DNA of 64,000 nucleotides, taken from positions 62,001 through 126,000 of the forward strand of contig CANRNN010000003.1 in the NCBI GenBank assembly GCA_947632025.1, given 5' to 3'. Position numbers and translations under genes: made by a program. This DNA is from an uncultured Clostridia bacterium. GTDB lineage: Bacteria > Bacillota > Clostridia > Oscillospirales > Ruminococcaceae. Of the stretch, positions 48,414-51,199 are shown in pieces (the first letter of the stretch is position 1; each line of letters starts with the position of its first letter). The notes below the pieces were generated by a model. That model had not been told where the DNA came from and searched no databases. It saw only the letters and a program-made list of their open reading frames with translations.

Positions 48414-49551
48414 ATATTTTTATTCGTTTTAATTCCTGAAGGAGCATATCGACCTCCTGCGGCGTGCTGAACGCGCCGGGGCTGAAGCGAATCGTTCCCG
48501 TTTCCAGAGTTCCGATCTTTTTGTGCGCAAGCGGAGCGCAATGCAGTCCTCCGCGCAGACAGAATCCGCGTTCTCCGAGAACGGACGATCCCTGTGCGGA
48601 ATCCATTCCCTCAATGTTAAACGATACCACAGGCGCGAATAATTTACGGCTTTCGGGAAGTATCTCGTTATAGAGCCGAACGCTGCCTATCTTCCCTGCC
48701 CCGACGCAGAACCGCTCGCAAAGAGAGAGTTCGTGCGACAGGATACGTTCGGGAGTTATTTTCCGAACATACTCCACTCCCGCTCCAAGCGCGATCGCTC
48801 CGGCGGTGTTTATAGTTCCGCTCTCAAAGCGGTCGGGCAGAAAGTCGGGCTGCTGAACGCTTTCGGACATAGAACCTGTGCCGCCCTCAATTATTGTTTT
48901 AAGCGGGAATTTTCCGTCGGTAATAAGCAAGCCCGTTCCCATAGGACCGTACAGGCTTTTGTGTCCCGCCGCGCAGATAATATTTATTCCGTCTTTAAGC
49001 GAAACAGGCAGTACGCCCGCACCCTGAGCGGCATCTACAATAAAACATATCCCGCGCCGAGCGCAAAGCTCCGCCAACTGCTTTATCGGATTGCATAATC
49101 CTATGACATTTGAAGCCGCGCAGCAGATAAGCGCCCGCGTGTTCGGTCGGATAGCCCGCGCAGCGTTTTTTACGGTAATTTCAACGTCCTCGTCGCTCTC
49201 GAAAAGTGTGTAACTTCCGCCGAAAAACTCACACGCGGAATGAACGGGACGCAGTACGGCGTTATGCTCCATATCGCTTATAACGAAATGCACGCCCTTA
49301 TGTGCCAGACCCTTTATCGCAAAATTTAATGCCTGAGTGCAGTTTAGCGTAAAAATGGTATTTTCAGGCATTGCCCCGAAAAAATCAGCGCAGACCTCGC
49401 GGGATCTGTAGACCGCCTCAGAGGTTCTTACCGCAAGCGGATAAGATGAACGTCCGGGATTAGCACCAAACTCTGCGGCGGCATTCTGAAATACTCTGTA
49501 AACATTCCGCGGCTTGGGAAAGGTAGTTGCTGCGTTGTCAAAATATATCAC
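48412..49551 (-). CDS. Class-V aminotransferase / cysteine desulfurase-like enzyme
   Basis: 379 aa PLP enzyme. Starts MIYFDNAATTFPKP; PLP Lys198 in AAGHKSLYGPMGTG; a Cys338 in CLRGGLHCAPLAHK at the position of the desulfurase nucleophile. This is the TIGR01977 (EF2568-like) family, related to SufS/CsdA. It probably removes sulfur or selenium from cysteine-type substrates. GTG start overlaps the stop of the DUF3343 gene (GTGA), so the two proteins likely work together. No SUF scaffold genes are nearby. Confidence 0.85.
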   Translation of the reverse strand: MIYFDNAATTFPKPRNVYRVFQNAAAEFGANPGRSSYPLAVRTSEAVYRSREVCADFFGAMPENTIFTLNCTQALNFAIKGLAHKGVHFVISDMEHNAVLRPVHSACEFFGGSYTLFESDEDVEITVKNAARAIRPNTRALICCAASNVIGLCNPIKQLAELCARRGICFIVDAAQGAGVLPVSLKDGINIICAAGHKSLYGPMGTGLLITDGKFPLKTIIEGGTGSMSESVQQPDFLPDRFESGTINTAGAIALGAGVEYVRKITPERILSHELSLCERFCVGAGKIGSVRLYNEILPESRKLFAPVVSFNIEGMDSAQGSSVLGERGFCLRGGLHCAPLAHKKIGTLETGTIRFSPGAFSTPQEVDMLLQELKRIKI

Positions 49552-49757
49552 GTTGAATTCGCCCCGCAGTCAACTCCGATAGAGCCGAGCAAGGCGCAGA
49601 CCTCACGGCGGCTGACGGAAGGATCGGTTATTTTCAGAGAAAAACCGCACCCCGTTCCCCTGCCGAATCTGCGTTCGACCATACACCGTATACCGCGGCT
49701 TTTCAGCAAACCTGCCGCCTTTTGAGCGGTAGTAAAGGATTTTATATTGATATTCAT
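49548..49757 (-). CDS. DUF3343 small protein
   Basis: 69 aa. Resembles the DUF3343 (putative Se/S carrier-like) family: a beta-strand/helix start NINIKSFTTAQKAAGLLKSRG and a GTGCGFSLKI segment with conserved Cys, plus a second Cys near the end. GAGGTG is placed for the ATG at 49757, not the upstream GTG. Translationally coupled to the desulfurase-like enzyme, so a persulfide or selenide acceptor role is likely but inferred. Confidence 0.75.
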   Translation of the reverse strand: MNINIKSFTTAQKAAGLLKSRGIRCMVERRFGRGTGCGFSLKITDPSVSRREVCALLGSIGVDCGANST

Positions 49758-49900
49758 AACTGTCACCTCATAATAAATTCAGGCAATATTGCCTATGACA
49801 GTATATGCGCAAATACGAAACCTGTTCGGACGACAGTGCTTTCCACGGCATTTTCCTATTACCGTGCAACAAGCCGGCAGACGGCAACAGCTGCCGGATA

Positions 49901-50383
49901 TTATATATTATAACTTCTGTTTTCATAAGCTAGATTTATTATGGGCTTGCCTTGCTTCAGGGCATATTTTACGGTTTGGTAAGCTCCTCCGCTCTCGTGT
50001 CGGATACAGCAGATCACAAGATCGGAACGGTCAACCATAACCCTGTTGCGCACTTGTATCGCTGCTTTGAAATGTGCTTTGTCGGATTCGGCGCAGACTT
50101 CGATCTCGTCATAATATCCGAGAAGATCATTACCGTTACGGTATTCGGCTTTCATATAAGGCAGAACAAGCGTGAAGTGAGTGTTTCCGAATCCGTATGC
50201 GCGGATAGCTCTCTTTATTCGGGACGCAGCAAGTATGTCAAAATCCCCCTCTCGTCCTATAAGAAATTCAACGTATTCTTTTTGTGTGATAAGGTCATAA
50301 AGCAAGTCATCAAGACGCTTTTCTATCTCTGTGGGTCTTTCTATATCCTTGTGTCCGAAAAAGCTTACGGTGTAAATTTCCAT
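49901..50383 (-). CDS. SLOG-family (YpsA/DUF1273-like) protein
   Basis: 160 aa. Rossmann-like start IYTVSFFGHKDIE, a GREGDFDILAASRIK segment and RSDLVICCIRHESGGAYQT near the C terminus, matching nucleotide or ADP-ribose-binding SLOG proteins common in Clostridia. Function unknown; SLOG proteins can sense nucleotide ligands. Divergent from the XRE regulator with a shared inverted repeat, so they probably form one regulatory unit. Confidence 0.72.
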   Translation of the reverse strand: MEIYTVSFFGHKDIERPTEIEKRLDDLLYDLITQKEYVEFLIGREGDFDILAASRIKRAIRAYGFGNTHFTLVLPYMKAEYRNGNDLLGYYDEIEVCAESDKAHFKAAIQVRNRVMVDRSDLVICCIRHESGGAYQTVKYALKQGKPIINLAYENRSYNI

Positions 50384-50397
50384 AACAGCAACTCCTA

Positions 50398-50501
50398 TAT
50401 ACCTTTATTACTATATATTATACACCTAAATGTCCCTATATTCAAGCCCAAAAGGATATTATTTTATTGTCCAAACGGGTATATAATATAATAAAGGTAT
50501 A
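50398..50501. promoter_or_regulatory. Divergent promoter region with a shared inverted operator-like repeat
   Basis: TATACCTTTATTA (50398-50410) is exactly the reverse complement of TAATAAAGGTATA (50489-50501). Each copy lies just downstream of a -10: minus promoter TTGAAT-17-TATAAT (50445-50417) and a plus -10 TATAAT at about 50482-50487. Both genes could be repressed by the same protein, likely the XRE product. Confidence 0.65.
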
Positions 50502-50518
50502 TTTGAAAGGACGGTTTT

Positions 50519-50827
50519 ATGGAGATCGGTAAGAAACTGCGAAAACTCAGGGAAGATAAGAACATGACCATGTACCGCCTAACACAGATAACAGGCATAT
50601 CGGGACATCATATCAAGGGTGTTGAGGAAGGAACACGACAGCCGACGATCGAAACCTTAGAACGTCTGGTAACAGCACTTGGTTCTTCTCTGGCAGAAAT
50701 ATTCAACGATGATATGGAGTGTTCCTATCTGAACGAGAGAGAAAAACACCTGATAGATAATTTTCGGGCAATGTCCGATGAAAAAGCAAAAGCTCTGCTT
50801 AACATGAGCGATATGCTGAATAAATAA
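50519..50827 (+). CDS. XRE-family transcriptional regulator
   Basis: 102 aa. N-terminal Cro/CI helix-turn-helix (residues 1-62: IGKKLRKLREDKNMTMYRLT, GISGHHIKGVEEGTRQPTIE) and a short helical C terminus. AAAGGACGG precedes the ATG. Probably autorepresses and controls the divergent SLOG gene. Confidence 0.86.
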   Translation: MEIGKKLRKLREDKNMTMYRLTQITGISGHHIKGVEEGTRQPTIETLERLVTALGSSLAEIFNDDMECSYLNEREKHLIDNFRAMSDEKAKALLNMSDMLNK

Positions 50828-50860
50828 AAAAGGCTGTTGCTTTGTGGGCAGCAGCCTTTT
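50827..50860 (+). terminator. Terminator after the XRE gene
   Basis: AAAAGGCTG/CAGCCTTTT stem, with TTGC/GCAG extending it, ending in TTTT; overlaps the stop codon end. Confidence 0.8.
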
Positions 50861-50983
50861 CGCTTCGGTGTGAGATTTTCAATTTAGAAAACAGAAATAG
50901 TGAAAACTACGAGATCATATTCGGTCATCAGTATAGGTATCCATAAAACTTCCAAAACCGTATCCAAACAAGACGGACAAAAC

Positions 50984-51034
50984 AAAACGTCCCACAACAA
51001 TGTGTGGGACGTTTTTATCAAGAGCATTGCCCTT
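50984..51034 (-). terminator. Two-hairpin trailer/terminator of the tRNA-Met-tRNA-Glu transcript
   Basis: Directly after the tRNA-Glu CCA: hairpin 1 AAGGGC-AAT-GCTCTT (51034-51020), then hairpin 2 with a 13-bp CGTCCCAC-type stem (51015-50984) ending in GTTTTGTTTT. Hairpin 2 is a strong terminator. The same two-part layout follows the other tRNA genes here. Confidence 0.85.
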
Positions 51035-51035
51035 A

Positions 51036-51110
51036 TGGTGACCCGTACGGGAATTGAACCCATGTTGCCAGAATGAAAATCTGGAGTCTTAACCTCTTGA
51101 CCAACGGGCC
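51036..51110 (-). tRNA. tRNA-Glu (anticodon TTC)
   Basis: Cloverleaf with acceptor GGCCCGT/ACGGGTC, D arm TTGGTCAAGAGGTTAA, anticodon stem-loop CCAGA-TTTTCAT-TCTGG, T arm with GGTTCAATTCC, and encoded CCA. Second gene after tRNA-Met in the same transcript. Confidence 0.95.
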
Positions 51111-51122
51111 ATATCACGGGCC

Positions 51123-51199
51123 TGGTAGCGGCAACTGGATTTGAACCGGTGACACCCTGGGTATGAACCAAGTGCTCTAGCCAACTGAGCTATGCCGCC
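51123..51199 (-). tRNA. tRNA-Met (anticodon CAT)
   Basis: Acceptor GGCGGCA/TGCCGCT, D arm TAGCTCAGTTGGC, anticodon loop TTCATAC, T arm GGTTCAAATCC, encoded CCA. The acceptor pairs at position 1, so it is the elongator type (or a tRNA-Ile with modified CAT), not the initiator. Confidence 0.93.

Follow-up and report, generated by a model that had tools for sequence, protein, structure and literature searches.

A gene for a predicted YpsA-like SLOG protein is recurrently paired with a divergent small regulator of varying type

Introduction

Why is a small SLOG gene kept back to back with a gene for a small DNA-binding protein, and does one product act on the other? This question was raised by a gene pair in the window, the whole 64-kb stretch of clostridial DNA that was analysed here. 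To our knowledge, YpsA-like SLOG proteins occur widely, and for most of them no function is known. One proposal, made in passages of PMC9503650, is that such proteins sense or degrade ADP-ribose signals.

Results

The gene pair and its products

The two open reading frames lie at 49901–50383 on the minus strand (160 aa) and at 50519–50827 on the plus strand (102 aa). They diverge from a shared promoter region of 135 bp (50384–50518), the central part of which is best conserved in alignments of six (A3) and seven (A5) loci. In the original prediction the pair had been read as a SLOG gene and an XRE gene, and both assignments held, the XRE by its Pfam HTH_3 match and the SLOG by its predicted fold and its related proteins. 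The 102-aa protein matched HTH_3 with 36.0 bits (cut-off 23, E 7.2e-9) and HTH_26 with 35.1 bits (cut-off 22, E 1.5e-8). It is a plain Cro/C1-type regulator with about 40 residues past the HTH, and no domain besides the HTH was detected in Pfam. PADLOC models HTH_VI and capH also matched, within a match list that spans 19 families. Small XRE proteins in general match HTH models of this kind. A terminator-like hairpin lies 3' of the gene (50828–50860, plus strand; inverted repeat I3, 13 nt, 92%). A search of viral contigs detected no SLOG relative and a single weak relative of the XRE, at 25% identity, and matches in three phage and four plasmid records were all below 60% identity.

The 160-aa protein had no Pfam or NCBIfam match above cut-off. 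PF06908, the YpsA family, was not among its Pfam matches up to an E value of 10, the best of which was LDcluster4 (18.1 bits, cut-off 26.3), and PDB sequence searches gave nothing relevant. More distant homologues do match PF06908 (L002, L113 and the second SLOG of L034), and the protein itself matched phrog_289 (1.8e-12). An AlphaFold model built from an alignment of 21 sequences had a pLDDT of 89.5 and a pTM of 0.86. Its best PDB match was Bacillus subtilis YpsA (2nx2; Foldseek E 4.3e-7), with a Z of 15.9 over 152 aligned residues at 15% identity. The next matches were DprA, ShosA, Moco carrier proteins and LOG, and the SLOG domains of TRPM and ThsA were also listed. By its predicted structure the minus-strand protein is a YpsA-like SLOG protein with the SLOG Rossmann-type fold.

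All 21 aligned homologues share G43, G46, F48 and D49, which form a glycine-rich loop with an acidic residue. Further invariant residues include T5, FGH at 9–11, N67, PY at 75–76, YYD at 90–92, R112, N113, S120 and GGA at 132–134. This pattern looks like a putative ligand or active site, and the GRxGxFD-like stretch may correspond to the GxD/E motif of YpsA described in part of PMC6459960. The sole PADLOC match of the protein was ShosA over residues 112–152 (41 residues, E 3.3e-5), which was seen in 8 of the 21 homologues. No effector domain was found within the 160 aa, and no toxin family matched in Pfam, NCBIfam or PADLOC. A plain canonical YpsA was rejected as the identity of the pair's SLOG in its own genome; the canonical YpsA is encoded separately there (L002, PF06908 3.9e-26), without a divergent HTH gene. 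In two other loci (L170:315-1967 and L171:414-1919) a YpsA-type SLOG domain is fused to a haloacid dehalogenase-like hydrolase domain.

SLOG genes are recurrently paired with a divergent small regulator

Homologues were gathered by SLOG similarity among the matches listed, including 76 stretches picked by hand. Four further stretches were picked by XRE matches; three loci (L063, L064 and L071) entered via the XRE search, but the SLOG search had listed those places too. Of 141 distinct SLOG ORFs, 131 were at least 130 aa long and 126 of these had 450 nt upstream. We counted 123, the other three being the second SLOGs of L034–L036, which score below 20 bits and so fall below the lowest bin. To detect neighbours, we extended the window XRE into an HTH profile and added an RHH seed.

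Among the matches listed, and with near copies retained, a small XRE or RHH gene lay directly upstream and divergent at 97 of the 123 counted loci (95 XRE, 2 RHH). At close loci (at least 100 bits to the window SLOG), again among the matches listed, 46 of 50 were paired (44 XRE, 2 RHH). In the lower bins a divergent XRE gene was found at 12 of 12 loci (60–100 bits), 13 of 17 (45–60), 25 of 35 (33–45) and 1 of 9 (20–33), the last bin holding the canonical YpsA of the window's own genome. Other placements of an XRE gene amounted to 7 among the 123 loci (upstream codirectional 2, downstream codirectional 3, convergent 2). As a control, flanking ORFs and DUF3343 genes were tested for a divergent HTH gene, which was present at 0 of 74 and 0 of 28, respectively; the 74 were those of 96 flanking ORFs with 450 nt upstream, and some of them may not be genes. 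Thus the co-occurrence proposed for the pair recurs, at 97 of 123 loci against none of the flanking ORFs. Pfam HTH_3 matched 85 of 116 neighbours tested at an E value of 0.01.

The 26 unpaired loci include four close ones (L003, L019, L030 and L046). In L003 an RHH gene lies past a transposase-like ORF, presumably of IS110 type. One XRE gene is visible for two SLOG genes in L024, where the first SLOG lies at the contig edge. By profile, no HTH gene adjoins the SLOG gene on the plasmid of R. albus 7 or the one in phage record MT835511. A WYL regulator identified by Pfam (L003:3785-4762) and a WYL-like gene by appearance (L174:2993-3976) each adjoin a SLOG gene without a directly adjacent small HTH gene. 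At L039:934-1428, L051:1492-1956 and L032:1501-1971 the SLOG frames seem interrupted beside a complete divergent regulator ORF; decay or assembly error are both possible.

The regulator type differs between close SLOG genes

Regulators were sorted into types as single-linkage clusters at 38% identity, for which reason T1 (45 members) is broad; two different XRE types still belong to one superfamily. Thirteen types resulted, eight of them beside close SLOGs. The partner regulators are 63–133 aa long (median 92, n = 97), and their Pfam matches are essentially DNA-binding domains. Two loci shared the regulator type in 11 of 11 cases at SLOG identities of at least 90%, in 64 of 107 at 70–90%, in 73 of 156 at 60–70% and in 514 of 1953 at 20–30%. 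The type is therefore partly inherited with the SLOG gene, yet often different between close SLOGs. Partners of SLOGs that are 70–78% identical can be different XRE types (below 38% identity) or a non-homologous RHH protein. The SLOGs of L004 and L005 (77% identical) stand opposite a T3 and a T1 XRE, and those of L009 and L010 (78%) opposite an XRE and an RHH protein. The best SLOG tree, with 52 rows, many open forks and long branches, needed 23 changes for nine labels (including 'none'), compared with a minimum of 8 and with 27.8 when the labels were shuffled. If strongly supported branches only are counted, two to three changes are forced for each of T1, T2 and T3. Differences were also found within single genomes: the two typed close pairs in each of G005, G010 and G020 differ in regulator type, with regulators 24–27% identical, and by reading G483 has a T1-like and a T3-like pair. 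Both pairs of G100 apparently belong to the broad T1, one of them being untyped.

Two relatives of the window XRE, 64 and 59% identical to it (L066 and L067), were found beside short SLOGs of the YAcAr clade, which score 30.0 and 28.3 bits against PF10686 (cut-off 28.2). In L066 the XRE gene, of T3 type, is directly divergent from the SLOG gene, whereas an RHH gene lies in between in L067. The intergenic DNA of L066 aligns with that of the window through both promoters. The XRE gene and the promoter region may therefore travel as a unit before different SLOG genes. Both loci are clusters of tiny genes (L066:328-2233 and L067:815-2038) next to a leuB-like gene, which we take to be leuB. They have a short YAcAr-type SLOG on one strand and Arc/RHH and XRE regulators on the other, with Pfam Arc matches. 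L066 has a second short ORF without clear family, and the clusters look as if regulators and SLOGs accumulate there. No SLOG lies near the more remote XRE relatives L068–L070 (39–48% identity).

The promoter region is better conserved than the inverted repeat

The predicted SLOG promoter (50417–50445, minus strand) consists of TTGAAT at 50440–50445, a 17-nt spacer and TATAAT at 50417–50422, this -10 box being invariant in seven aligned loci. For the XRE gene (50459–50487, plus strand), TATAAT at 50482–50487 is preceded by a weak -35 element, TTATTT, at 50459–50464. A 13-bp perfect inverted repeat had been described just past both -10 boxes, 78 nt apart. It is present: TATACCTTTATTA lies at 50398–50410 and its reverse complement at 50489–50501, separated by 78 nt, each occurring once within the window. 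The perfect match in fact extends to 14 bp, with arms at 50397–50410 on the SLOG side (minus strand) and 50489–50502 on the XRE side (plus strand), and imperfect longer arms reach 22 nt at 86%. On the XRE side the arm starts 2 nt downstream of the -10 box, on the SLOG side 7 nt downstream of it. The arms sit between each box and the gene start, around the expected transcription starts.

Some of this symmetry would be present in any case, since the divergent -10 regions are both AT-rich and mirror each other. Among 5000 dinucleotide-shuffled versions of the 135 bp, 11 contained a perfect inverted repeat of at least 13 bp and 1 contained one of 14 bp. Conservation was followed in seven orthologous pairs of type T3 by local alignment of one intergenic half against the reverse complement of the other half, with plain letter shuffles for comparison. 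Extended symmetry was clear in the window (0 of 150 shuffles), L004 (0) and L014 (1), weak in L216 (9), and did not exceed the shuffles in L038 (84), L063 (84) and L064 (66), where L063 and L064 are near copies of each other. A scan for small dyads gave none common to all seven aligned regions. The best conserved DNA was instead formed by both promoters and the stretch between them, which is kept even where the SLOG belongs to another clade; the invariant columns of A5 cluster in the two -10 regions, the SLOG -35 and an AT block at the XRE -35. These footprint alignments omit the distant T3 member L043; L216 was added after A3, and L064, as a near copy of L063, was omitted from A5. The 13-mer was therefore rejected as the conserved operator, with symmetry missing in three of the seven pairs and clear in only three, and the promoter block kept in its place.

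The repeat of the window may still be a real operator copy, though not the conserved part. Independently of the alternatives discussed below, there is an appreciable, if lesser, chance that it is a by-product of the mirrored -10 regions and no operator at all. Such an origin fits L038, L063 and L064, whereas the single shuffle that reached 14 bp and the extended symmetry of L004 and L014 argue against it. Across 95 pairs, perfect intergenic inverted repeats exceeded those of shuffles with p<=0.05 in 32 and p<=0.01 in 18; these loci are not independent (for example L113, L125 and L131), and the regions include 45 nt of either gene. An excess of this kind is expected for dimeric repressors, and mirrored promoters contribute to it too.

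Patchy distribution and signs of mobility at some loci

The neighbouring cysteine desulfurase locus was read in 29 of the 42 other genomes of the genus, and the DUF3343 gene is kept in 28 of these 29. The SLOG–XRE pair was seen at none of the 29 loci within an upstream reach of 1.5 kb (0.3–0.7 kb in some). In the window (49548–51199) the pair stands between the DUF3343 gene and genes for tRNA-Met and tRNA-Glu, and the tRNA genes are inverted relative to the csd genes when compared with four congeneric loci. In those loci the DUF3343 gene adjoins tRNA-Met and tRNA-Glu (L179, L185 and L189) or tRNA-Met (L191); no tRNA gene adjoins it in the other 25. The SLOG gene itself is patchy. Matches of at least 100 bits were found in at least 15 of 43 genomes of the genus, and of 398 genomes sampled from the whole phylum, 11, the window's own genome among them, had a SLOG match at an E value of 1e-10.

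A MobA/MobL relaxase sequence lies less than 1 kb upstream of five SLOG genes (L020–L023 and L027), past the regulator and a small ORF; the one in L022 is an 87-aa piece only, and that in L020 has Pfam support. Other flanks carry resolvases, an integrase, a colicin-type nuclease or a restriction subunit. On the conjugative plasmid of R. albus 7 the SLOG copy lies between two integrase genes, with no HTH annotated. At most loci, the window included, no mobility gene was present within the few kb read, so mobility is shown for some loci only. Large proteins are encoded just downstream of the SLOG gene at L007:3190-4638, L008:3624-5081 and L012:1259-2710. The one in L007 ends in a colicin-type DNase/WHH nuclease domain, which three flanking ORFs in all match.

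Discussion

Taking these observations together, we consider it rather probable that the pair is a horizontally moving two-gene cassette in which the SLOG gene is silenced by a swappable autorepressor. A dimer of the small XRE protein would bind the shared promoter region and repress the SLOG gene and probably its own. The original prediction that the XRE protein represses both genes is retained in part: the data are best read as a regulator that acts on the promoter region between the two genes, and repression itself is what we infer. Different small DNA-binding proteins are found in the same position, which argues for a one-way role, in which they shut off the SLOG gene and probably their own genes. 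The simplest form of relief would be that a newly entered cell contains no repressor. Synthesis of the SLOG protein would then fall mainly into times of little or no repressor, for example just after the cassette has entered. The SLOG protein would act as a YpsA-like nucleotide-ligand protein that bears its role alone and not in a complex with the regulator. Speculatively, its ligand could be a nucleotide signal, for instance a derivative of ADP-ribose, and its role either signal scavenging (anti-defence) or defence.

It had also been proposed that a ligand sensed or made by the SLOG protein relieves the XRE protein, so that the pair, with the XRE repressing both genes, forms a small stress or defence switch. 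The divergent arrangement around a shared promoter region would suit such a switch, as would the relation of the fold to the ligand-binding structures of the ThsA SLOG and LOG. Still, the window XRE has no domain besides the HTH, a relative of it stands opposite a SLOG of another clade, and the regulators are short, essentially DNA-binding only and of different types beside SLOGs that are 70–78% identical. A dedicated signal from SLOG to regulator is therefore unlikely, and we regard this switch as quite improbable. Also very unlikely is a housekeeping YpsA paralogue with a local regulator and a part in the control of redox state or cell division, like the one proposed for the B. subtilis protein. 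The best fold match is YpsA, which acts in division and oxidative stress according to passages of PMC6459960, but the genome already has a canonical YpsA without a divergent HTH gene, and the pair is patchy and absent from the 29 congeneric loci read.

Doubtful, though worth weighing, is a regulated defence module in which the SLOG protein, as sensor or effector, harms the cell on binding an infection-derived nucleotide and is kept silent by the repressor; the regulation assumed may overlap with that of the cassette. CapH-type repressors keep CBASS silent, and HTH_VI and capH models match the window XRE, but such models match small XRE proteins generally. ShosA is among the structural matches, yet as the sole PADLOC model matched it covers 41 residues, and the 160-aa protein has no effector domain found. 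The SLOG frames that seem interrupted beside a complete regulator ORF in L039 and L051 would agree with such a module, and cyclic ADP-ribose isomers serve as activators of the Thoeris SIR2–SLOG protein ThsA, as stated in part of PMC11204291.

Returning to the proposed silenced cassette, several known systems resemble parts of it. B. subtilis YpsA (PF06908) shares the predicted fold and the glycine-rich GRxGxFD-like stretch. The window protein differs in having no PF06908 match, a patchy distribution and a divergent small regulator, which 8 of the 9 loci in the 20–33 bit bin do not have. In Acr–Aca systems small mobile-element genes are tied to repressing HTH regulators of many families (excerpts of PMC9410906), much as an HTH gene is tied to a cargo gene at 97 of 123 loci here. 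There the regulator lies downstream in one operon, whereas here it is divergent, with a downstream codirectional XRE gene at 3 of 123 loci, and the cargo is one SLOG family. Small repressors beside conflict-type genes are also represented by CapH, by ParD/Arc-type proteins and by RptR (PMC12255303, in part). In contrast to these defence and toxin–antitoxin loci, the partner here matches no toxin family, the regulator varies while the partner stays, and the genes are divergent, type II toxin–antitoxin genes usually forming one operon. Phage YpsA-like and YAcAr SLOGs belong to the same superfamily, as viral fold matches indicate, and counter-immunity via ADP-ribose signals is proposed for them in sections of PMC9503650. 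Those are virus genes, some fused to an HTH, whereas a separate divergent regulator and bacterial genomes of this order are involved here.

No description of SLOG–XRE pairs was found in the literature searched, which was mainly open-access, and the 2015 paper of Burroughs on SLOG systems may contain a mention. Where both SLOG and XRE were named, XRE occurred in a reference title only, and a term search of PMC11541004 on leading-region anti-defence returned neither SLOG nor DUF1273. The component parts are of known kinds, on which the pairing with varying regulators would be a new variation.

A bolder version of the cassette can be outlined, which we hold to be rather unlikely as a whole. In it, such pairs would make up a common and so far undescribed class of cassettes, in which a SLOG enzyme or sponge on mobilizable elements would remove ADP-ribose-type immune signals on entry and later be silenced by a private autorepressor, an Acr–Aca logic for nucleotide-signal immunity. 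Elements would swap repressor and promoter together, as one swaps a cartridge, and two cassettes present in the same cell would thereby avoid silencing each other.

The coupling to small regulators that vary from locus to locus suggests that it is important for the SLOG gene to be controlled, and less important by which protein. If so, this narrows the function of the SLOG protein to one that would be harmful or wasteful if constant and useful at special moments, for example during transfer of an element. Removal of the regulator would offer a simple handle for finding the SLOG ligand, and the link between regulator and SLOG could guide the discovery of further SLOG cargo by association.
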